Part shown: positions 11,552 through 21,534 of the stretch, one piece after another
Layout of the letters: every line of letters starts with the position of its first letter
Numbering within the stretch: position 1 is the first letter of the stretch
Assembly (NCBI RefSeq): GCF_017255015.1
Contig: NZ_JAFKCS010000022.1
Coordinates: 1 to 62,947, forward strand
Direction: 5' to 3'
DNA: 62,947 nucleotides
Source of the DNA: Bowmanella yangjiangensis
GTDB lineage: Bacteria > Pseudomonadota > Gammaproteobacteria > Enterobacterales > Alteromonadaceae
The notes under the pieces: model-generated
The model's input: the letters and a program-made list of their open reading frames with translations, nothing else
Database searches by the model: none
Told to the model about the DNA's origin: nothing
Translations under genes and position numbers: made by a program

Positions 11552-11571
11552 AATTGGACGAAAGACCAATT
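11552..11571. promoter_or_regulatory. TetR-type operator, site A (ALDH promoter)
   Basis: AATTGGACGAAAGACCAATT shares the AATTGGAC head and CCAATT tail with the sites at 16555-16570 and 17492-17521, although its centre is less symmetric. It lies 79 bp upstream of the aldehyde dehydrogenase start and directly after the DUF2254 stop. The probable ligand is the TetR protein encoded at 16705-17352. Confidence 0.65.
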
Positions 11572-11650
11572 ATCTGAAACGGATAACAATAAGCCGCTTG
11601 TTCCCCCCGCAGGAATAGCATAATGTGAACACCTGTTTGAATTATTCGGG

Positions 11651-13030
11651 ATGCACATGACTGGGCTAATTGCACAACAGGTAGAAGGCTTACGCAGCTA
11701 CTTCAATACCGGCGTCACTAAAGATTTAAGCTGGCGTCGTCAGCAGTTAAATCAGTTGCTGACCATGACCCTGACTCATCAGCAGGATATTGTTGAGGCG
11801 CTCAGGCAGGATCTGGGTAAAGCGGAACAGGAAAGCTGGCTGGCGGAAATCGGTTTTCTGGAAGACGATATAAAACACAGCCTCAAGCACCTTGCCAAGT
11901 GGTGCAAGCCCCGCAAGCTTTCCACTCCCATGCTGGCCCAACCCGGCAGCAGTTGGTTGCAACCCGAGCCGCTGGGTACGGTGCTGATTATTGGCGCCTG
12001 GAATTACCCCTTTCAGTTACTCTTAGCCCCATTAGTCGCCGCCATTGCTGCCGGTAACTGTGCGGTGGTCAAGCCATCTGAACTGGCCGAACACACCAGC
12101 GCCCTGATTGCCCGCTTGCTGCCCCGTTATCTCGACAGTAACGCCTATCAGGTGGTGGAAGGGGGCGTGGAACAAACCACCGAGGTACTTAAACAGAAGT
12201 TTGACCATATTCTCTACACCGGCGGAGAGACGGTAGGCAAAATTGTCATGAAGGCCGCCGCCGACCACCTGACCCCAGTGACACTGGAACTGGGTGGCAA
12301 AAGCCCCTGCATTGTCGCCAGTGATTGCGATCTGGATGTCACCGCCGCGCGCATTGTGTGGAGCAAATGGATGAACGCCGGGCAAACCTGCGTGGCCCCG
12401 GATTACATTCTGGTGGAGAATGCCTTCGTCGATAAACTTATCGCCGCTATTGTCAGCAAGTTAGACGCCTTTTACGGAAAAAATCCGGCCCAAAGCCCAG
12501 ACTATGGCAGAATTATCAACCCCCGCCACCTCGCCCGGCTGCAGTCGTACCTTGAAGGGCAGAAGGTGGTATGCGGTGGCCAGGTAGATGAAAATACCCG
12601 TTATATGGCGCCGACCCTGGTACAAAACCCGGCCCTGGACAGCCCGCTGATGCAGCAGGAAATATTCGGCCCCATCTTGCCTATTGTCGGTCTGGACCGA
12701 ATTGAACAGGCCAAGGATTTTATCAACCAGCGGGCCAAGCCACTGGCCCTGTACTTGTATACCCGCTCTCAAAGCTTAGAACAGCAGATACTGGCAGGCA
12801 CCAGTGCCGGTAGCGTCTGTATTAATGACGGCATCATGTTTATGGCTAACCCGGCGCTACCTTTTGGGGGCGTGGGCAATAGCGGCATGGGCCGTTATCA
12901 TGGTCAATGGGGTTTTGATACCTTCAGCCATTTAAAGGCCGTAATGAAACGCAGCACCCGCTTTGACATTGACTGGCGTTACCCGCCCTTTAGTGCCAAA
13001 AAAATGAAAATGCTCAAGTGGGTGAAATAA
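11651..13030 (+). CDS. NAD(P)-dependent aldehyde dehydrogenase, class 3 / coniferyl-aldehyde type
   Basis: The 459-residue cytoplasmic enzyme has the short class-3 ALDH length. Glu213 (VTLELGGKSP) and the catalytic Cys247 (NAGQTCVAPDY) are both present. The coenzyme-binding segment (GAWNYPFQLLLAPLVAAIAA) and GGETVGK are intact. Family members oxidise medium-chain, aromatic or fatty aldehydes to acids. A matching TetR operator in its promoter ties it to the oxidase/cytochrome/TonB-receptor block to its right. The next gene overlaps its stop by one base (TAATG). Start is ATG 11651 or the second ATG two codons later. Confidence 0.9.
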   Translation: MHMTGLIAQQVEGLRSYFNTGVTKDLSWRRQQLNQLLTMTLTHQQDIVEALRQDLGKAEQESWLAEIGFLEDDIKHSLKHLAKWCKPRKLSTPMLAQPGSSWLQPEPLGTVLIIGAWNYPFQLLLAPLVAAIAAGNCAVVKPSELAEHTSALIARLLPRYLDSNAYQVVEGGVEQTTEVLKQKFDHILYTGGETVGKIVMKAAADHLTPVTLELGGKSPCIVASDCDLDVTAARIVWSKWMNAGQTCVAPDYILVENAFVDKLIAAIVSKLDAFYGKNPAQSPDYGRIINPRHLARLQSYLEGQKVVCGGQVDENTRYMAPTLVQNPALDSPLMQQEIFGPILPIVGLDRIEQAKDFINQRAKPLALYLYTRSQSLEQQILAGTSAGSVCINDGIMFMANPALPFGGVGNSGMGRYHGQWGFDTFSHLKAVMKRSTRFDIDWRYPPFSAKKMKMLKWVK

Positions 13031-13446
13031 TGCTACAGCCTTTTCATTTAGCCATACCTGTCACCTCACTGGCCAAGGCCAGACGCTTTTATGGGGAATT
13101 ACTGGGCTGTGAAACCGGGCGTTTCAGTGAGCAGTGGATAGACTGGAATTTTTTTGGTCATCAGCTAGTCACGCACTTGGTGGAACAGATGCCCAGCGCC
13201 CCGGCGCATAACGAAGTAGATGCCCATGCGGTGCCCGTGCCGCATTTTGGCGTGGTACTGGCCTGGTCTGACTGGCAACAACTGGCTGACAAACTCACCC
13301 ATGCCGGCTGTGACTTTGTGATCAAACCCTATATTCGCTTTAAAGGTCAGGCCGGCGAGCAGGCAACCCTGTTTTTACTCGATCCTTGTGGTAATGCCCT
13401 GGAATTCAAGGCCTTTAAAGATCTTAATCAACTCTTCGCGGTTTAG
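13030..13446 (+). CDS. VOC family protein (putative metal-dependent lyase/dioxygenase)
   Basis: The 138-residue VOC protein has a candidate metal triad: H6 (PFHLAIPV), H72 (PHFGVVL) and E125 (GNALEFK). Unlike the VOC protein at 1179-1562 it therefore could be catalytic. ATG 13030 overlaps the ALDH stop (TAATG), giving translational coupling. An upstream GTG at 13018 is less likely. Related small VOC proteins are annotated as extradiol-dioxygenase-like or glyoxalase-like; the substrate is unknown. Its last four bases overlap the end of the convergent PLP-type gene. Co-transcription with ALDH puts it in the TetR regulon. Confidence 0.82.
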   Translation: MLQPFHLAIPVTSLAKARRFYGELLGCETGRFSEQWIDWNFFGHQLVTHLVEQMPSAPAHNEVDAHAVPVPHFGVVLAWSDWQQLADKLTHAGCDFVIKPYIRFKGQAGEQATLFLLDPCGNALEFKAFKDLNQLFAV

Positions 13447-14729
13447 GGGCCATCGGCCCCCAATACCGGCCAGCGAGCCAGCAATTGGCCATTACGCATG
13501 GCCAGCAAATGGCCAAACTGTAATAACACGGCCTCGCTTTGCAGGGGCCGCAAAAATACCCAGTCATCCACCGCCAGCGGCAGTTGTGCTGAGCCACTTA
13601 ACCCTTGCTGATTGGAGCTGTCATACAGGCCATTAAAACTCAGCCCAGGCGGTGACCAGGGAGCTGCCAGCCATTTACCACCGTAGATAAAAAAGCTCAC
13701 CTGCTGATTGGGATCCCACCAACTTGCCACGCTACCCAGCCATTCCTGGGTCGGCACTCCTTGATTCACCTGTTTTTTTAGTACACGAGTGGCAATGGCC
13801 GCGGCCGGTTCAAACTCTGCAAGTATTGGCAGGTCAAAATCCAGAGGCTTTAACAAACAAGAGCCCACTGACAAATCATTTACTTGTGTGACATCACCGT
13901 AGCGCAAAAAGGTTGGGCTACCGGCGCCGTTAAAACACAGCGGCCGCTCAAACCACTTGGGGTATGCACTGCGAATCTGTTCCACATAAGCACGATAACG
14001 GGCCTGCACTTGTATGAACTCGCGGTCCCCCAAAAAGCCGGGCAGTTTACTGACATGGGCGTCGTAACCCATTAAACCGGAAAATTGCAGATGCTCGGGA
14101 TTTGCTGCCACTAATTCCAGAGCCTTGGCAAAGCTGGCCGGTTCATTAAAGCCGCCACGATGCAGCCCCACATCAATCTCAAAGTTTACTCTCAGTAGCA
14201 AGCCTTGCTGTTTGGCCAGTTGCAGGTATTGCTCAAGCCTTGGCAGGCTGTCAATCAGCCACTGCAATTGCTCTGCAGGAACAAAGCCCTGCGATTGTGG
14301 TTGCCAGCTTTGATAAAAAGCCGCGGCGGATGCCACCGGCATTGGCTTACCAAACAGAATGTCGGCATCGGGTTTGGCTTTGGCCAGCGCTTGCAGGAAA
14401 GGCAAATGAAACACCATATAAGCCTGGCTTTGGCTGCGCTTGGCTATATAGTCAAGCAAGTCGGGGCTTGGCAGCGACTTCACCACAATCCGGTAGGTTT
14501 TATCTGGCTGGCGGCTGAAAAATGCATTTAATACCGCCAGGTTCTGGTCCAGTTTATCCAGATCAATCAGTAGCGACGGATGGGTAACATCAGCGCGGTC
14601 TAATGCCGAAGACAAGCCCTGAAAGTAAGGCTCAACGGCACCGGCATTATCCTGCGGCTTGGCCAGCCAGGCACCGCCCAGCAACGCCACACCAGCACCG
14701 GCTTTTAAAAAGGTGCGTCTGCTTGTCAT
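13443..14729 (-). CDS. Tat-exported fold-type III PLP protein (alanine racemase N-terminal / DSD1-like)
   Basis: The 428-residue protein begins with a twin-arginine signal (MTSRRTFLKAGAGVALLGGA), so it is exported folded, consistent with a bound cofactor. The body resembles the alanine racemase N-terminal/D-threonine aldolase-like group: SLLIDLDKLDQNL, the candidate PLP lysine in RIVVKSLPSP, EIDVGLHRGGF, GSPTFLRYGDV, and a C-terminal domain with QSEAVLLQFGHL. D-amino-acid dehydratase, aldolase or racemase chemistry is known for relatives. Here the substrate is unknown and the active-site pattern is not canonical. It lies downstream of the FAD oxidase and cytochrome genes (65-base gap), probably in one operon. 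Confidence 0.78.
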   Translation of the reverse strand: MTSRRTFLKAGAGVALLGGAWLAKPQDNAGAVEPYFQGLSSALDRADVTHPSLLIDLDKLDQNLAVLNAFFSRQPDKTYRIVVKSLPSPDLLDYIAKRSQSQAYMVFHLPFLQALAKAKPDADILFGKPMPVASAAAFYQSWQPQSQGFVPAEQLQWLIDSLPRLEQYLQLAKQQGLLLRVNFEIDVGLHRGGFNEPASFAKALELVAANPEHLQFSGLMGYDAHVSKLPGFLGDREFIQVQARYRAYVEQIRSAYPKWFERPLCFNGAGSPTFLRYGDVTQVNDLSVGSCLLKPLDFDLPILAEFEPAAAIATRVLKKQVNQGVPTQEWLGSVASWWDPNQQVSFFIYGGKWLAAPWSPPGLSFNGLYDSSNQQGLSGSAQLPLAVDDWVFLRPLQSEAVLLQFGHLLAMRNGQLLARWPVLGADGP

Positions 14730-14794
14730 CTCAACCTACTCCATTTATCAATTCATTAATCAGTCGTTGAAGCCCCTGCCGGGATAAACAGCAT

Positions 14795-16213
14795 TTACAC
14801 ACCCAGCACCTGTTTTAAATGGGTATTCAGCAACTTGCCATTGGGATCCAGACTTTCCCGAATGGCGAGAAAGTCCTGCCAGTGTTTGGGATACAGTGCG
14901 GCCAATTGTGGTGCCTGTAAGGTATGGATCTTGCCCCAATGGGGACGCCCTTCGTACTGGTGGAATATCGGTTCAATCTCGGCAAAAAACGGCCGGTAAT
15001 CCAGGTCGCCAAACTGATGGATAGATAGCACAGCACTGTCGCGTCCTTGGTACATGGACAGCATAATGTCGTCGCTTTTCACATGCCGGTATTCAATAGG
15101 AAAACAGGCTGGCAACTTACGTCGCACAATAGTATCCAGCACCTTACGTAAACACTCCGGCCCGGCTTCCACCGGCACAGAATATTCCATTTCACAAAAA
15201 CGCGTGGTTCTGGCATGGGCCAGCACCCGATAAGAGGGGCCGGTTCGAACTACTGGCGGGTTGCCGCCAAAGGCTTTGTCCAGCAACCAGGCATACAGAG
15301 ACTCCCCTACTCCAGGTAGCCAGGAGACAGATTCGAATACCTGACGTAGCTGGTTCAAGGCACCGGGATCCTCTTCGCCCTGATTCACATCTGCGGCTTT
15401 GGCCTCATTGGTGGCCACCGAGATACCAAGGGGCGAATAAGGCAAAGCAAAGATTTCAAAATGGCGGTTTTGTGCCATACGCTGCTCAAGCTCTGAGAGC
15501 ATCAACTCAAGGGGTTCAACCTGGCTGACTTCGGTCAGACGGTAGGCGCTTTGGCATTGCAAACGCACTCTGGAAACGACACCCAAAGCACCTAAGTGGG
15601 TGCGGGCGGCGTTGAATATTTGCGGATGTTGTTTGGCGCTGACATCCAGCAATTGCCCATCCACTGTTGCCAAAGTAAGCCCGGCCACCTGGGTAGACAG
15701 CGAGCCGAAGTGTTTGCCGGTGCCATGGGTTGAAGTGGCAATAGCCCCGGCCAACGACGGATAATCCATATCCGGCAGATTTTGCGTGGCCAGCCCGACA
15801 CTTTCCAGTAAGGGGCCCAGACTATGCAGGCGCGTGCCGCCCCAAACTTCAGCTTGTAAGGTAGCGGGGTCGTGGCTAATCAGCCCTGACAAATAGTCCG
15901 TGGTCAGCAAGGTATCGTCGGTAGGCACTAAGGCACTAAATGCATGACTGGAGCCCACCGCCCGCACTGTGCCTTTGGCCTGGGTCAAACCTTGCAGCAA
16001 CTGCTGTTCGTTACGTGGTGCCAGACGCTGTGACGGATAACAACTGTGATTCTTGCCCCAGTTAATCCAGGGCAGGGGTTTGCCCGGCACGTAGGGCGCA
16101 GCCAGTGGCGGCGACGCCGGATTAGGTGAACAGCCCGCCATAGGCACAGCAGCGCTGGCGGCCAAACCTTTGAGTAAGGTACGTCTGCTGATGCCGGACG
16201 TATTACTTGTCAT
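14795..16213 (-). CDS. Tat-exported FAD-linked oxidase, D-arabinono-1,4-lactone oxidase / alditol oxidase type
   Basis: About 472 residues. The twin-arginine signal (SRRTLLKGLAASAAVPMAGC) also ends in a Cys, so it may be lipid-linked. An FAD-binding PCMH-type domain spans about 60-230 (VRAVGSSHAFSALVPTDDT; GAIATSTHGTG). The C-terminal ALO domain carries the family hallmark GRPHWGKIH. Relatives oxidise sugar lactones or alditols. The gene directly follows cytochrome c and overlaps its end by 11 bases, so electrons probably go to that cytochrome rather than to oxygen. ATG 16213 has AGGAGG upstream and is preferred over an in-frame ATG at 16231. Confidence 0.85.
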   Translation of the reverse strand: MTSNTSGISRRTLLKGLAASAAVPMAGCSPNPASPPLAAPYVPGKPLPWINWGKNHSCYPSQRLAPRNEQQLLQGLTQAKGTVRAVGSSHAFSALVPTDDTLLTTDYLSGLISHDPATLQAEVWGGTRLHSLGPLLESVGLATQNLPDMDYPSLAGAIATSTHGTGKHFGSLSTQVAGLTLATVDGQLLDVSAKQHPQIFNAARTHLGALGVVSRVRLQCQSAYRLTEVSQVEPLELMLSELEQRMAQNRHFEIFALPYSPLGISVATNEAKAADVNQGEEDPGALNQLRQVFESVSWLPGVGESLYAWLLDKAFGGNPPVVRTGPSYRVLAHARTTRFCEMEYSVPVEAGPECLRKVLDTIVRRKLPACFPIEYRHVKSDDIMLSMYQGRDSAVLSIHQFGDLDYRPFFAEIEPIFHQYEGRPHWGKIHTLQAPQLAALYPKHWQDFLAIRESLDPNGKLLNTHLKQVLGV

Positions 16214-16535
16214 GCCCCACCTCCTTGGCATCGCCCAACATAAAGTCGATCAGGGTCTGCATATCCTCCTCGGTGCAGGCACTGCAATAGCCCATGGGCG
16301 GCATGCCACCTACGCCCTCAATACTGTTTAGCAGGATCTGCTCGCGGCCTTTTTGCATACGCGCCTGCCAGGCCTGAGTATCGCCCAGCAGTGGCGCACC
16401 GGTGTGAGCAACCGCATGACATTGCAGGCAGTTATGACTCAACAACTGCATTTGTTCCGGAGTCATTTGTGCTTGAACAGCGCTGCCTGACAAGCCAGCG
16501 ATGAGCAGCGCCAGACGAAGTGGAGATAGAGCCAT
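16203..16535 (-). CDS. periplasmic c-type cytochrome (c5-like)
   Basis: The 110-residue protein has a Sec signal peptide (cut after about residue 22, AVQA), one haem motif CLQCH, and the c5-type tail MPPMGYCSACTEEDM, which supplies the axial Met and a second Cys pair typical of cytochrome c5. It is first in the operon with the FAD oxidase and the PLP-type protein, and is the obvious electron acceptor for the oxidase. Its promoter carries the TetR-type operator B. Confidence 0.9.
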   Translation of the reverse strand: MALSPLRLALLIAGLSGSAVQAQMTPEQMQLLSHNCLQCHAVAHTGAPLLGDTQAWQARMQKGREQILLNSIEGVGGMPPMGYCSACTEEDMQTLIDFMLGDAKEVGHDK

Positions 16536-16554
16536 AAAGCCTCACCGGCATAAA

Positions 16555-16598
16555 TTGGACGAGCGTCCAAATTACAGTCCACCCTGTTGGTTTGTCAA
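16555..16598 (-). promoter_or_regulatory. cytochrome c/oxidase promoter with TetR operator, site B
   Basis: The operator TTGGACG-AG-CGTCCAA (16555-16570) has perfect 7-bp arms. On the minus strand a consensus -35 TTGACA (16598-16593) is followed after 18 bases by TAATTT (16574-16569), which overlaps the operator, so bound repressor would block the polymerase. The stretch 16599-16704 shows nothing else. Confidence 0.75.
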
Positions 16599-16704
16599 CA
16601 GCTTGTTAGACTACCTGCGGGTTGAGCGAACTTGCCCGGATAGACACCGGGATTGGCGGCTGCCTGGGTATCAGAGCCAATACATTCGTGCAGTATGGGC
16701 AAAG

Positions 16705-17352
16705 CTAGGACTGCGCAGTAAACAAGCTGCTAAACAAGCGCTTCAGGCACTGATAAACAAATTCAGCATCAAATTCACGTCCGCCGTTGGCATGGGCAAA
16801 CTCCATCTGGCTGATGGCCGCGAGAATCAAATGCGCATCCTGCCAGGGCATGCTGCTGCCAAAACGCAGACACACAGATTCAATCATCTTTAACTGCATC
16901 TGAGTAAAGGCCTGAATTTTCGCAGCCAGCGGCTCAGCCACATTAAAGGCATACACAAAGTGGCTTTCCACCCCCAACTCGCGGCGCCGCTGCGTGACCC
17001 CGGCTTGGATATGCTGGGTCAGAAAGTCTGCCAACTGGCTGGTCAGCCCGTCCAGTTGTGCCGCCGACAACGAGCCATCCGGTAACTGACATTGCTGATC
17101 AATGTTGGCTCTGACCTTGTCACGATAGGGCTGAGTTTGTTCGACAAAGCGGTCAAAGGCCGCCTCAATCAGATTATCGAGGGAACCGAAATAGTAGCTG
17201 GTGAGGGACAAGCGCACCTCAGCACGGCTGGCAATAGTGCGATGTGACAGCGCTGCCAGGCCACCTTCGGCAATCAAATCCAGCGCGGCTTCGAGGATTT
17301 TGCCCCGGGTGATCTCACTTTTTACCGTTTTCTTGTCCACCGTGCCGGTCAT
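16705..17352 (-). CDS. TetR/AcrR-family transcriptional regulator
   Basis: About 215 residues. The N-terminal TetR helix-turn-helix spans about 10-60 (GKILEAALDLIAEGGLAALS, HRTIASRAEVRLSLTSYYFG). The C-terminal ligand domain is not recognisable by family. The frame opens at 17397, but ATG 17352 has a GGGGAG ribosome site. It sits between operator sites B and C and is the natural candidate for the repressor that reads the AATTGGAC palindromes at sites A, B and C. It would thereby control ALDH-VOC, the cytochrome/oxidase/PLP operon and the TonB receptor. The inducer is unknown. Confidence 0.9.
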   Translation of the reverse strand: MTGTVDKKTVKSEITRGKILEAALDLIAEGGLAALSHRTIASRAEVRLSLTSYYFGSLDNLIEAAFDRFVEQTQPYRDKVRANIDQQCQLPDGSLSAAQLDGLTSQLADFLTQHIQAGVTQRRRELGVESHFVYAFNVAEPLAAKIQAFTQMQLKMIESVCLRFGSSMPWQDAHLILAAISQMEFAHANGGREFDAEFVYQCLKRLFSSLFTAQS

Positions 17353-17470
17353 CCCGTCTCCCCGTTTCACCAAATACAAAAGTCCGACGTTATCCAAGCC
17401 CTATGGGGCAGTCAAGCCGCTTTCACTAGCAAAGCGCACAGACACAAAGCAACAAATTCATTACAAAGCA

Positions 17471-17521
17471 TTGACAATTCTCGCCATCGGAAATTAAATT
17501 GGACGAGTGTCCAATTTAATT
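17471..17521 (+). promoter_or_regulatory. TonB-receptor promoter with TetR operator, site C
   Basis: Perfect 13-bp arms AATTAAATTGGAC (17492-17504) and GTCCAATTTAATT (17509-17521) surround GAGT. A -35 TTGACA (17471-17476), a 17-base spacer and -10 TTAAAT (17494-17499) place the operator over the -10 and start site, as at site B. Position relative to the TetR gene also allows autoregulation. Confidence 0.8.
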
Positions 17522-17561: not shown

Positions 17562-19889
17562 ATGTACCTTAATTCGAAGCTCAGTGCTTTGGCGCTATCC
17601 ACCAGCTTAGCCCTCACCTCAGCCTGGGCTCAGGAAGCGCCACCGGCCGAAGACAGTGGTTTGGAAGTCATCATGGTGTCGGCGCAAAAACGCAGCCAAA
17701 GCGTGAAAGAGGTGCCGATTTCCATCACCGCTATCCCGGCGCAGAAACTTATCGACAACAACCTCAGCACCGCAGAACAGCTATCCAGCAGCATTGCCAA
17801 CTTCTCGGTGGGTCAGACCGGCCAGGGCTTTGCCATCAATATGCGCGGCCTGGGATCGGGGTCGAATCAGGGTTTTGAGCAAACCGTAGGAACTTATGTG
17901 GACGGGATTTACCGCGGTCGGGCCCAACTAATGCGCAGTAGCTTTCTGGATGTTGAACGTATTGAGGTGCTACGCGGCCCCCAGAGCACCTTGTTTGGTA
18001 AAAACACCACCGCCGGTGCCCTGAATATCCTCACCGCCAAACCCACCGATGACTTACGTGGCTATCTGCATGGTGCCTATGAACTGGACAATGGGTACAG
18101 CCTGGAAGGCGCGGTGGGCAATGCCCTGACGGATAATTTGCAGGGCCGCGTGGCACTGAAATTGATTAATGAAGACGGCTTTTTGCATAACAGCCTGATG
18201 GGCCGCGATGAAGTGGCCCGTAACAGCCTGTTAGGGCGTGTATCCCTGGCCTGGCAACCGGCCGACGATGTGGACGTCCTGCTACGTTACCAGTTTGACC
18301 GTGAAGATTCTGACGGTGTGCGAAATGCCCAGCCGGTAGCCGAGCCTATCTACTTAAACGGCGGAGCCCAGTTGCCAGATTATTTTGGCGATCCCCGCCA
18401 GTATGTACTGGACGATGTAACGCAAAAAGGCTTACGAGAACTGGGGGAAGACGAAGGCACAGACTATCAGGCTGACCATCTGACGTTGGATGTACAGTGG
18501 CAGTTGGGAGAGCTGAGTCTGACCTCAGTAACCGGCTGGCAACGTTATGATTTGGCCCTGACCAGTGACGGTGATGACAGCCCGGTGCCGCTGGTGTATC
18601 GCCAGTACAACGACGAAGAATACCGCCAGCTCAGCCAGGAATTACGCTTAACCTCCGACTGGCAGGGTGCCTTTAACTTTATCGCCGGCGCTTACTACCA
18701 AGAGACCGAACTGGATTTTGCCGAGGCCTATCGCATCTATCCGCTGAATGCATTGGGGCCGCGGGACTACCAGAATGACTCAGACACTTGGGCCTTGTTC
18801 AGCCAGTTGGACTTCAGCTTTAGCGACCACTGGCAGGCTACGCTTGGCCTACGCTATTCCCAGGAAGACAAGCAAGCTTCCCGCACCCTGACACTGGTAG
18901 AGTTATCCACTGGGGAAATCCTTGCCGAGCAGGACATAGTCAATGTACCGGACATGCTGCAAGCCATGGGACTACCAGCCCAGTTGCCGCCGGAAATCTA
19001 CCTGGGGATCCTCGCCAGCGAACTGCAACTAGAACAGCATGCGGTAAGTGGCGAACGCACCGAGAAAGCCTTTTCGCCAGCCCTGAACATTAAGTACAAG
19101 TTTGGCGGCGGTATGCTGTACGGCGCGGTATCCACCGGCACCAAAGCAGGTGGTTTTGATGCCAGGGCCAATGTGGCCAGAGACTGGGAATTTGAAGACG
19201 AGTCGGTCCTCGCCTACGAACTGGGGGCCAAATTGACCTTGGATGATGGCAGTGCTGATCTGAATCTGGCCCTGTTCAATATGGAATTTGAAGATTTGCA
19301 AACCTCGACCTTTGATGGCACTGCCGGTTTCTTTGTAGAAAACGGCGGTAAGTCCACCAGTCGCGGCGTTGAACTAGATGGCCGCTGGCAGTTTGCCGAC
19401 AACTGGCGTTTATCCGGTAACCTCGCCTGGCTGGATTTCAGTTGGGATGAATTCAAAGGTGCGAAATGCTTCTACAGCCTGATGTATACCCCGGATAATG
19501 TTGAAGCCGATGGGCAATCTTGCGATATGTCCGGCAAAACCGGGGCCTTTGCGCCCAAATGGTCCGGTTCACTGGATTTGGATTACCTGATGGAAATCGG
19601 TGACGGTCTGGAGCTTAAAGTGAATCTGCAAAGCCAATTTAAGTCCATGCATTACACCAACTATGATCTCAACCCTTTTACCGCACAAAGCGGCTACGGT
19701 AAGTTGAATCTGCGCGTCGCATTAGCCGACTATGCCAATGGTTGGTCGGTGGCAGTGCTGGGCAAAAACCTCACAGACAAAAATACCATCAACTATTCCA
19801 CCGATATGTCTTTTGGTCCGGTAGGCATGTACAGCGTGTACACCGAACAAGGACGCAGCGTTACCCTGCAGTTCGGTTATCAATTCTAA
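17562..19889 (+). CDS. TonB-dependent receptor of the TetR-controlled block
   Basis: The 775-residue outer-membrane receptor has a signal peptide to about residue 23 (TSAWA), a TonB box region (LEVIMVSAQKR, about 34-44), and a plug with INMRGLGSGSNQGFEQTVGT and VERIEVLRGPQSTLFGKNTT. The barrel ends in a terminal Phe. The plug style is that of the large siderophore/small-organic-molecule receptor group of proteobacteria, not the glycan type at 24194. Regulation by the same operator as the periplasmic oxidase suggests it imports the oxidase substrate. Its last 29 bases overlap the convergent acyl-CoA dehydrogenase gene. Confidence 0.9.
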   Translation: MYLNSKLSALALSTSLALTSAWAQEAPPAEDSGLEVIMVSAQKRSQSVKEVPISITAIPAQKLIDNNLSTAEQLSSSIANFSVGQTGQGFAINMRGLGSGSNQGFEQTVGTYVDGIYRGRAQLMRSSFLDVERIEVLRGPQSTLFGKNTTAGALNILTAKPTDDLRGYLHGAYELDNGYSLEGAVGNALTDNLQGRVALKLINEDGFLHNSLMGRDEVARNSLLGRVSLAWQPADDVDVLLRYQFDREDSDGVRNAQPVAEPIYLNGGAQLPDYFGDPRQYVLDDVTQKGLRELGEDEGTDYQADHLTLDVQWQLGELSLTSVTGWQRYDLALTSDGDDSPVPLVYRQYNDEEYRQLSQELRLTSDWQGAFNFIAGAYYQETELDFAEAYRIYPLNALGPRDYQNDSDTWALFSQLDFSFSDHWQATLGLRYSQEDKQASRTLTLVELSTGEILAEQDIVNVPDMLQAMGLPAQLPPEIYLGILASELQLEQHAVSGERTEKAFSPALNIKYKFGGGMLYGAVSTGTKAGGFDARANVARDWEFEDESVLAYELGAKLTLDDGSADLNLALFNMEFEDLQTSTFDGTAGFFVENGGKSTSRGVELDGRWQFADNWRLSGNLAWLDFSWDEFKGAKCFYSLMYTPDNVEADGQSCDMSGKTGAFAPKWSGSLDLDYLMEIGDGLELKVNLQSQFKSMHYTNYDLNPFTAQSGYGKLNLRVALADYANGWSVAVLGKNLTDKNTINYSTDMSFGPVGMYSVYTEQGRSVTLQFGYQF

Positions 19890-21534
19890 CCAACAAACGC
19901 TCGACAATAGCCTGGGTATTAATCCCTTCGGGTAGGCAGCCAAATTGCAGGCTGCTCTGCCCAAGGCGGGCGCGTACAAAAGCCTCAGCAATCCAACCTT
20001 CACCATGCAGCAGCAGGGTGGCAGCCTGCCAGCACAGTGCCAGATGCTGCAGAATATGGCGGGCAGCGTATTCAAGGCTTTCTGTTTGTACCAGCATGGC
20101 CAGGGTTTGCTCTAAACGGCGATCATACAAAGGATGCCGGCCTCTGGCCGCTTCAAGCTCTGCTATCAACGCATTCAGACAGTCAGACTCCCGCGATAAC
20201 ACCCGCAGTAAATCCAGACACTGCACATTGCCCGAACCTTCCCAGATGGAATTCACCGGCGCTTCCCGGTACAAACGGTTGCAGACATTTTCATCCACAT
20301 AACCAACGCCGCCAACACATTCCATGGCTTCAAAGGTTTGCAGTACGGCCCGTTTACAGACCCAGTATTTACCGATGCCCGTGGCACAGCGCACCAACGC
20401 TGCCTGCTGTGCATCCTGCATATTATCCAGCGCATGGGCAATACGCATACTGATGGCCAGGCTGGCTTCCGCTTCCAGGGCCAAATCCGCCAGCACGTTG
20501 AGCATCAGTGGTTGCAAATGCAGCGGCCGGCCAAAGGCACTGCGACCGGCCGTATGCCAGATGGCTTCCTTGGCCGCCTGCGCCATCAGAGCCGACGAGC
20601 CAATCATGCAGTCATAGCGAGTTAGCGCCACCATCTGGATAATGGTGGCCACGCCGCGTCCTTGCTCTCCCACCAGCCAGCCATGAGCGCCGCGCAGTTC
20701 AATTTCGGCACTGGCGTTGGATCTGTTGCCCAGTTTGTTTTTAAGACGTTGAATGTGAATTGGGTTTTTGCTGCCATCTTCCCGCCAGCGCGGCACCAAA
20801 AAGCATGAAAGCTGATCCTCCACTTTTGCCAGCATTAAAAAGCCATCGCACATGGGGGCCGAGCAGAACCATTTATGACCAAGCAGGCTGTATAGCTGCC
20901 CAGCGCCAGGCTGACCGACAGGCACCGCCACCGTGGTATTGGCCCGCACATCAGAACCGCCCTGTTTCTCGGTCATGGCCATACCTATAGTCAGACCGAC
21001 TTTTTCATACCAGGGCTTATTGCTCCCATCATAATGGCCGGACAGAATGCCAGGTAACCAACAACTCGCCACGTCGGGTTGCGTTTGAATAGCTGGCACA
21101 CTGGCAAAGGTCATGGTTAAGGGGCAGCCCGAACCAGGATCAGCGTGATTATGCAGATAGGCCAGGGCCGCCCTGGCCACATGCGTACCGGGCTCCTGCA
21201 TGGTCCAGGGTAAATGGGTGTGGCCAGCGGTAATGGCCGCCTGCATAAGTTGGTGATAGGCAGGATGGTAATCAACCTGGTCGATACGGTGCCCAAAACG
21301 ATCGTGGGGGAGAAATTCCGGAATGTGTTTATTGGCCTGGAAACCCGCTTGCAATAATTCATGACCGACCTGATGACCGAATTCCATAAGCCTGGGTTCA
21401 GCCCACTTTGCACCAAAGACCCGCAGCCAATATTGCAACATGCGGTCACCGTGGAAGGCATTGTAGTTTTCAAGCGGCGGAGGTTGGTTAAAAACCTGGT
21501 GGGTAGAAGCAATGGCATGAGTCAATTCCGTCAT
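19861..21534 (-). CDS. AidB-like acyl-CoA dehydrogenase family protein
   Basis: The 557-residue protein is close in layout to E. coli AidB. It begins with VFNQPPPLENYN and has the flavin/substrate loop GMAMTEKQGGSDVRANTT, HKWFCSAPMCDGFL, RLKNKLGNRSNASAEIE and the C-terminal REAPVNSIWEGSGNVQCLDL. AidB binds FAD and DNA and is linked to the alkylation response; some relatives are isovaleryl-CoA dehydrogenases. ATG 21534 has AAGGAGG. It overlaps the TonB receptor tail by 29 bases. No TetR-type operator was seen in front of it, so membership of that regulon is not supported. Confidence 0.9.
   Translation of the reverse strand: MTELTHAIASTHQVFNQPPPLENYNAFHGDRMLQYWLRVFGAKWAEPRLMEFGHQVGHELLQAGFQANKHIPEFLPHDRFGHRIDQVDYHPAYHQLMQAAITAGHTHLPWTMQEPGTHVARAALAYLHNHADPGSGCPLTMTFASVPAIQTQPDVASCWLPGILSGHYDGSNKPWYEKVGLTIGMAMTEKQGGSDVRANTTVAVPVGQPGAGQLYSLLGHKWFCSAPMCDGFLMLAKVEDQLSCFLVPRWREDGSKNPIHIQRLKNKLGNRSNASAEIELRGAHGWLVGEQGRGVATIIQMVALTRYDCMIGSSALMAQAAKEAIWHTAGRSAFGRPLHLQPLMLNVLADLALEAEASLAISMRIAHALDNMQDAQQAALVRCATGIGKYWVCKRAVLQTFEAMECVGGVGYVDENVCNRLYREAPVNSIWEGSGNVQCLDLLRVLSRESDCLNALIAELEAARGRHPLYDRRLEQTLAMLVQTESLEYAARHILQHLALCWQAATLLLHGEGWIAEAFVRARLGQSSLQFGCLPEGINTQAIVERLLVRIDNRTAG

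Follow-up and report, generated by a model that had tools for sequence, protein, structure and literature searches.

Why would an outer-membrane receptor, a cytochrome c, an oxidase, a pyridoxal phosphate (PLP) protein and an aldehyde dehydrogenase (ALDH) share one palindromic sequence, and which substrate would such a gene set serve? The question is raised by a locus of Bowmanella yangjiangensis, a species of an environmental genus, within a stretch of 62,947 nucleotides (contig NZ_JAFKCS010000022.1; hereafter, the window). Based on comparison of its operators, genes and relatives, the locus is probably a regulon for the uptake and breakdown of sphingoid bases (of the sphingosine or sphinganine type) arranged around an sphBCD operon. 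The most likely substrate on our analysis is a sphingoid base or, more broadly, a close long-chain amino-alcohol. An earlier note on this DNA had recognized no described pathway in the gene set and had left the substrate unknown. That statement did not survive, as the core is sphBCD, the genetics of which have been published for Pseudomonas (PMC11893366). The core operon is, hence, already known; what is new, and the contribution of the present analysis, is its link to the regulatory and enzymatic wrapping (TetR, TonB receptor and ALDH).

Operator Sites, Promoters and Their Conservation

Palindromes of the AATTGGAC-N4-GTCCAATT type precede the ALDH gene, the cytochrome c/flavin adenine dinucleotide (FAD) oxidoreductase/PLP operon and the TonB-receptor gene (operators A, B and C, respectively; Table 1). 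All three are real and lie within a few bases of the positions first reported (11552, 16555 and 17492), and the tetR gene does lie between sites B and C, divergent from the receptor gene with operator C in the gap. Using the pattern AATTGGACNNNNGTCCAATT with ≤3 mismatches, we computed three matches in the window against 0.27 expected, a number reached by 0 of 100 shuffles. In the whole genome (5,401,690 bases, 922 contigs), the same threshold returned 17 places, of which operators A–C have 0–1 mismatches and the other 14 exactly 3, leaving only three places below three mismatches in 5.4 Mb. A backward-read control pattern matched the same genome at 37 places with ≤3 mismatches, and at one place with ≤2, versus three for the true pattern.

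The palindrome had also been placed over the −10 region of a TTGACA promoter at two sites. The overlap is present at C and B (at the latter, TGTAAT overlaps the edge of the operator) and is conserved in three species; the promoter scan, in turn, gave 5 promoter-like sites versus a shuffle mean of 4.7, i.e., no excess, and the pair at site B was absent from its output. We regard both promoters as likely because their hexamers are conserved among the three species, not because of the scan.

The two relatives nearest by PLP protein, B. pacifica and B. denitrificans (matching G002 and G001, respectively, in coordinates), carry all three sites at the same three genes with 0–2 mismatches, the operator A counterparts having two mismatches each. 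Aligned across the three species, the palindromes, together with the TTGACA boxes at B and C, are clearly preserved amid flanks that drift. When 17 genomes were scanned at ≤2 mismatches, the three locus-bearing genomes had the three sites each (plus one stray place in G001 and two in G002), two same-genus genomes without the SphD/PLP gene (G003 and G004) had no site, and the 12 further genomes had 0–2 scattered places. The backward control at this threshold gave one place in the window genome, seven in G001, three in G002 and 0–80 in the other genomes. Given that the counts in the two relatives are not clearly higher than in this control (4 vs. 7 and 5 vs. 3), it is the position of the sites, not their number, that carries the case there. 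In another genus, Lacimicrobium alkaliphilum, sites B and C persist, with the core TTGGAC-N4-GTCCAA exact at B and a 2-mismatch version at C. On this comparison, one three-site regulon joining the receptor, the oxidase/cytochrome/PLP genes and the ALDH is well supported, with TetR predicted to bind the sites. The regulon had been proposed with an ALDH-VOC unit, of which the VOC part fell away: the VOC protein is 99% identical in B. pacifica, and a DJ-1/PfpI protein holds the same place in B. denitrificans (L022, 11575–12342), for which reason VOC was rejected as a core member.

Orthology to the Pseudomonas sphBCD Operon

Domain and family searches agreed with the gene identities in the earlier note, the calls in the window being ALDH, VOC, Ala_racemase_N-type PLP protein, ALO/FAD_binding_4 oxidase, single-haem cytochrome c, TetR_N and TonB receptor. 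The cytochrome c, ALO-type FAD oxidoreductase and Ala_racemase_N-type PLP genes form one operon in the sphBCD order. The same three genes occur in the same order in a P. aeruginosa record (L117), followed by a gene annotated "transporter" and sphR. Identity to the P. aeruginosa proteins is 47% for SphC, 48% for SphD and 49% over 74 residues for SphB, and the P. aeruginosa SphC query found a single match in the Bowmanella genome, the window gene. Sequence comparison, thus, argues strongly that the three-gene operon is the orthologous counterpart of P. aeruginosa sphBCD; the L117 genes are PA5328–PA5326, assigned by position and description. The L117 record (NZ_CP070468.1) is named a plasmid and carries spoT, rpoZ, gmk, rph, pyrE, argB, dut and coaBC; it looks like a chromosome labelled as a plasmid.

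The sphBCD genes belong to the sphingosine-induced SphR regulon together with the porin gene sphA and the ceramidase gene cerN (PMC3900636, PMC5150637). In P. aeruginosa, sphBC are required in sphingosine metabolism, with sphingosine building up in their absence, and deletion of sphBCD reduces growth with sphingosine (PMC11893366); genetics of the sphBCD-type core are reported there for P. aeruginosa, P. protegens and P. fluorescens. The idea of C1 oxidation followed by aldol cleavage comes from LaBauve and Wargo (PMC3900636), and, according to the 2025 sphBC paper, the direct sphingosine metabolite was not detected, perhaps because one candidate is a reactive aldehyde aldol (PMC11893366). A search of titles and abstract openings, covering the best matches of longer lists and with subscription papers mostly outside, returned no TetR-, TonB- or ALDH-linked sphBCD, and the literature search found no genetics of Bowmanella sphBCD.

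The P. aeruginosa sphBCD/SphR regulon (PA5324–PA5328 and cerN) resembles the Bowmanella locus in gene order, in the 47–49% identity and in including an outer-membrane entry protein. The two differ in their regulators, an AraC-type activator (SphR) in P. aeruginosa versus an adjoining TetR_N regulator in Bowmanella, and in their partners, the porin SphA and the ceramidase CerN in the former but a TonB receptor, a class 3 ALDH and no ceramidase found in the latter. A P. aeruginosa SphR query gave 11 matches in the Bowmanella genome; the top-scoring one is 27% identical, and all lie outside the contig of the window.

The SphC and SphD Enzymes

SphC has a twin-arginine motif by eye (SRRTLLKG), with PF10518 scoring 20.4 bits, below its cut-off of 22.7. 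The best solved match is xylitol oxidase, an enzyme acting on terminal hydroxyls. Xylitol (alditol) oxidase and L-galactono-1,4-lactone dehydrogenase share with SphC the FAD-binding domain and ALO-type relatives; SphC differs from them in its apparent twin-arginine N terminus, its cytochrome c gene partner and its expected substrate, a lipid amino-alcohol.

The structure of SphD was modelled from 44 rows, comprising the window protein, 39 of the best 80 among 288 SphD-type loci found in named genomes (the 41 left out being nearly all Pseudomonas) and four others. This model, with a mean predicted local distance difference test (pLDDT) score of 90.4, replaced a weak earlier model from 7 rows (66.4). 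Its nearest folds are a beta-hydroxyaspartate aldolase (6qkb), a D-serine dehydratase (3anu) and a D-threonine aldolase (4v15). The PLP lysine (K84), D186, H190, R191 and E399 are kept in 44/44 of the chosen sequences and Q397 in 43/44, and the model fold and the alignment together place SphD in fold type III with a PLP lysine. D-threonine aldolase, which carries a His-x-Asp/Cys metal site near its C terminus, D-3-hydroxyaspartate aldolase and D-serine dehydratase are alike SphD in fold and in the PLP lysine region. SphD, however, is only ~15–17% identical to these relatives, has a twin-arginine N terminus and apparently bears Gln397 in place of their metal-site His.

Of the 44 aligned ranges, 33 show a twin-arginine pair among their first 12 residues; the other 11, most of which start later, do not. 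Just upstream of the annotated SphD start in P. aeruginosa L117 (9998), there is an in-frame twin-arginine stretch, NRRKFMFAG, and the annotated start looks too far downstream. SphD is, from these N termini, likely exported. Natural sphingoid bases are (2S,3R). Oxidation at C1 would change the priority order at C2, so that the product would be 2R, a D-type amino acid or aldehyde, which would fit an SphD of the D-aldolase type.

The Aldehyde Dehydrogenase

The best solved matches of the ALDH are the class 3 enzymes 4qgk, 1ad3 and 3sza (473–480 bits over residues 3–453). The protein scored 479.8 bits against 4qgk ("Fatty aldehyde dehydrogenase") versus 318.2 against the benzaldehyde dehydrogenase 5ucd, and its best NCBIfam model, benzaldehyde dehydrogenase MdlD, gave 393.8, under the cut-off of 550. 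The genome holds 14 PF00171 matches in all, and 12 further ALDH matches are 26–34% identical to that of the window. The aldehyde proposal for sphBCD predicts an ALDH under the sphBCD operator, as found here. ALDH matches occur at 41 of the best 80 SphD-type loci, 36 of them only 24–27% identical and five higher (L021, L022, L023, L055 and L060). The ALDH upstream of sphB in Pseudomonas (e.g., L040) was considered as the same link and not counted, being of another ALDH type.

An ALDH under the sphBCD operator would predict the product of SphBCD, supply an enzyme for trapping it and offer another organism for assays. In this manner, the regulatory and enzymatic wrapping makes the question of the SphBCD product testable.

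TetR Genes and Palindromes at Other Loci

Loci were matched by tblastn (E 1e-4, at least 30% of the query). Among the best 80 of the 288 SphD-type loci, 76 have a SphC match, 67 a SphB match, six a match to the window TetR and seven a TonB-receptor match; as they are mostly Pseudomonas and the best of 288, they do not represent 80 independent events. In the Thalassomonas/Colwellia/Shewanella branch of the SphD tree, a related TetR (24–36% identical) lies divergently beside sphCD, and TGTAC-N4-GTACA palindromes with the same geometry as those of the window occur in the tetR-sphCD gap at four of six loci (L017, L019, L028 and L030). No TTGTAC-type site was found at L018 and L035, which also have a related TetR. 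The recognition-helix region of TetR differs by group (RLSLTSYYF vs., e.g., PLGSTTYHF), which appears to run in step with the different half-site, a suggestive correspondence only.

The earlier note had looked to co-occurrence of the genes elsewhere, and a similar palindrome-linked receptor/oxidase/PLP arrangement does exist in a Colwellia metagenome-assembled genome (L031). There, TTGTAC-N4-GTACAA sites precede sphC and a TonB receptor 54% identical to that of the window (three matches vs. 0.07 expected; 0 of 100 shuffles reach three). The presence of the receptor type does not track SphD, and its use as a sphingoid-specific marker is not supported.

A differently built cluster in Paraglaciecola arctica (L060) has, on one strand, a TonB receptor, cytochrome, FAD oxidase, PLP protein, related ALDH (58% identical), different TetR and acyl-CoA dehydrogenase. 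Its receptor shares 27% identity with that of the window and its TetR did not match the window TetR, so the cluster looks like a comparable set put together from different components.

SphD-type genes are uncommon, found in 8 of 369 genomes of the class at E 1e-40, the genome of the window included (≤4 candidates scored per genome). In seven further stretches from the class (two of which repeat L049 and L051), sphC accompanies SphD in 4/7, with varied neighbours. In Yoonia (L118, 7899–14695), the PLP gene lies between alpha/beta hydrolase and AMP-binding genes, with a cytochrome and FAD oxidase a few kb off on the other strand. In L112 (6816–10659), genes for an alpha/beta hydrolase and for a protein of the wax ester synthase type accompany the PLP gene, and the stretch gave no sphC match. 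In an uncultured Haliea (L077, 5985–16102), the genome of which has a ceramidase, an sphBCD-type operon is flanked by di-haem oxidoreductase, RPE65-type carotenoid/stilbene oxygenase and thiolase genes.

Proposed Route and Alternative Explanations

We infer a route that extends from the binding of TetR and its ligand, through the ligand of the receptor, the substrate and the locations of the proteins, to every chemical step. Without substrate, TetR would occupy operator A before ALDH as well as B and C, where it would cover the −10 regions of the receptor and sphBCD promoters, leading to repression, and a sphingoid base or a product would release it. Uptake of the lipid through the outer membrane would fall to the TonB receptor. 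SphC would oxidise the C1 hydroxyl in the periplasm, with electrons passing to the cytochrome SphB, and SphD would cleave the resulting D-configured 2-amino-3-hydroxy product to yield a long-chain aldehyde and a glycine-side fragment. The aldehyde would then enter the cell, where the class 3 fatty-aldehyde-type ALDH would convert it to a fatty acid. In the sphingosine-1-phosphate lyase route, the hexadecenal produced is handled by the fatty aldehyde dehydrogenase ALDH3A2. The route proposed here would likewise lead to a long-chain aldehyde and then a class 3 ALDH, but with C1 oxidation and a D-aldolase-type enzyme in place of the kinase and lyase. We suggest, tentatively and with a little less than even confidence, that the locus may encode a complete kinase-free sphingoid-base route under one TetR-type regulator, in which the ALDH partner would identify the missing SphBCD product as a fatty aldehyde. 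If true, such bacteria would gain a defined way to use sphingolipid-derived bases.

Several observations weigh against a sphingoid-base regulon. According to the 2025 paper, SphD of P. aeruginosa is dispensable for growth with sphingosine, and its authors see no evidence that SphBC alone are enough or that they act on sphingosine directly (PMC11893366). The genes listed for the P. aeruginosa stretch L117 include no ALDH. SphD has Gln-Ser-Glu at 397–399 where relatives have the metal-binding His motif, a register taken from a weak part of the alignment, and this stretch is also present in the P. aeruginosa protein. Operator A overlaps no evident promoter, with a conserved CATAAT downstream of the site, the Lacimicrobium ALDH has no preceding site at ≤3 mismatches, and no relative of the window TetR was found in the 21-kb Colwellia stretch L031. 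With ≤10 candidates scored per genome, a window-type receptor (E 1e-150) was present in 3/7 genomes with a strong SphD match, and two genomes without SphD have such a receptor (54–55% identity), located beside a bile-acid-symporter-type gene or Entner–Doudoroff genes.

Other observations weigh against it too and would suit a regulon and chemistry of the same type acting on another amphiphilic or aromatic 2-amino-1,3-diol or beta-hydroxy-D-amino substrate, with sphingoid bases being used in Pseudomonas only. The branch leading to the Bowmanella/Lacimicrobium SphD clade is long (1.39), meaning the substrate could have shifted; the best NCBIfam model of the ALDH is the aromatic-type MdlD, below cut-off; and in Ruegeria pomeroyi the consecutive TetR, cytochrome, FAD oxidase and PLP genes adjoin 4-hydroxyphenylacetate genes, i.e., aromatic breakdown. 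A ceramidase (PF04734) search also found none in the window genome, two other Bowmanella and Lacimicrobium. This absence says little, given that two Pseudomonas genomes with sphBCD likewise lacked PF04734, which was found in only 2 of the 10 genomes searched (Pleionea and Haliea). The strong orthology to sphBCD and the better ALDH match to the fatty aldehyde enzyme than to the benzaldehyde enzyme speak against such a substrate, which we consider unlikely. An aromatic-aldehyde or lignin-type pathway, brought to mind by the RPE65-type oxygenase in Haliea L077 and a phenol-MetA-type porin in Pseudomonas L029, was set aside because neighbours vary and the L029 porin fits the published description of SphA; it lives on within this alternative.

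The operon might instead detoxify membrane-active sphingoid bases rather than feed on them, the ALDH merely clearing a toxic aldehyde. Pure defence would hardly call for the active uptake suggested by a TonB receptor that shares the operator, and the acyl-CoA dehydrogenase gene in the Paraglaciecola cluster also argues against this, making it rather improbable. Least probable, to a degree that we would call very slight, is that the palindromes bind another regulator, or that TetR controls its own divergent promoter only, with the genes not forming one pathway. Binding of TetR to the palindromes is itself a prediction, Lacimicrobium keeps two of the three sites, and the site counts in the two relatives are not clearly above the backward control; against this stand the recurrence of the sites at these promoters in all three species and the related TetRs beside sphCD, which come with palindromes of the same geometry at four of six loci. 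The sphingoid-base regulon is the reading that we retain.

Gene Content of the Locus

The coordinates of the genes, operators and likely promoters are given in Table 1.

Table 1. Features of the sphBCD-like locus in the window (positions are those of the window).
Feature	Position	Strand	Remarks
Operator A, AATTGGACGAAAGACCAATT	11552..11571	.	1 mismatch; 80–99 bp before ALDH start
ALDH, class 3-type	11651..13030	+	Best solved match by sequence 4qgk, fatty aldehyde dehydrogenase
VOC/glyoxalase-fold protein	13018..13446	+	Overlaps end of ALDH gene; variable member
SphD-like PLP protein, fold type III, D-threonine/D-3-hydroxyaspartate aldolase-like	13443..14729	-	Twin-arginine N terminus SRRTFLKAG by eye
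SphC-like FAD oxidoreductase	14795..16213	-	TIGR01679; best solved match xylitol oxidase 2vfr; apparent twin-arginine N terminus by eye; ATG at 16213 taken as start, longest open reading frame begins at 16231
SphB-like single-haem cytochrome c	16203..16535	-	Sec-type signal by eye; overlaps sphC start
Operator B, AATTGGACGAGCGTCCAAAT	16553..16572	.	1 mismatch; precedes sphBCD-like operon
Likely sphBCD-like operon promoter	16571..16598	-	TTGACA 16598-16593, 16 nt, TGTAAT 16576-16571 by eye; both hexamers kept in three species
TetR-family regulator	16705..17352	-	ATG start; upstream TTG start at 17397 possible
Likely TonB-receptor promoter	17471..17500	+	TTGACA 17471-17476, 18-nt spacer, TAAATT overlapping operator C; conserved in three species
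Operator C, ATTAAATTGGAC-N4-GTCCAATTTAAT	17493..17520 (pattern match 17497-17516, 0 mismatches)	.	Perfect palindrome, 12-bp arms
TonB-dependent outer-membrane receptor	17562..19889	+	Domain/family matches; 54%-identical receptor beside sphCD in Colwellia L031

Beyond these features, an acyl-CoA dehydrogenase gene (19861–21534) was considered as a member of the regulon and rejected, as it has no operator beside it and the B. denitrificans stretch gave no match. This gene, of the AidB type, converges on the TonB-receptor gene and overlaps its end, and has a counterpart in B. pacifica.

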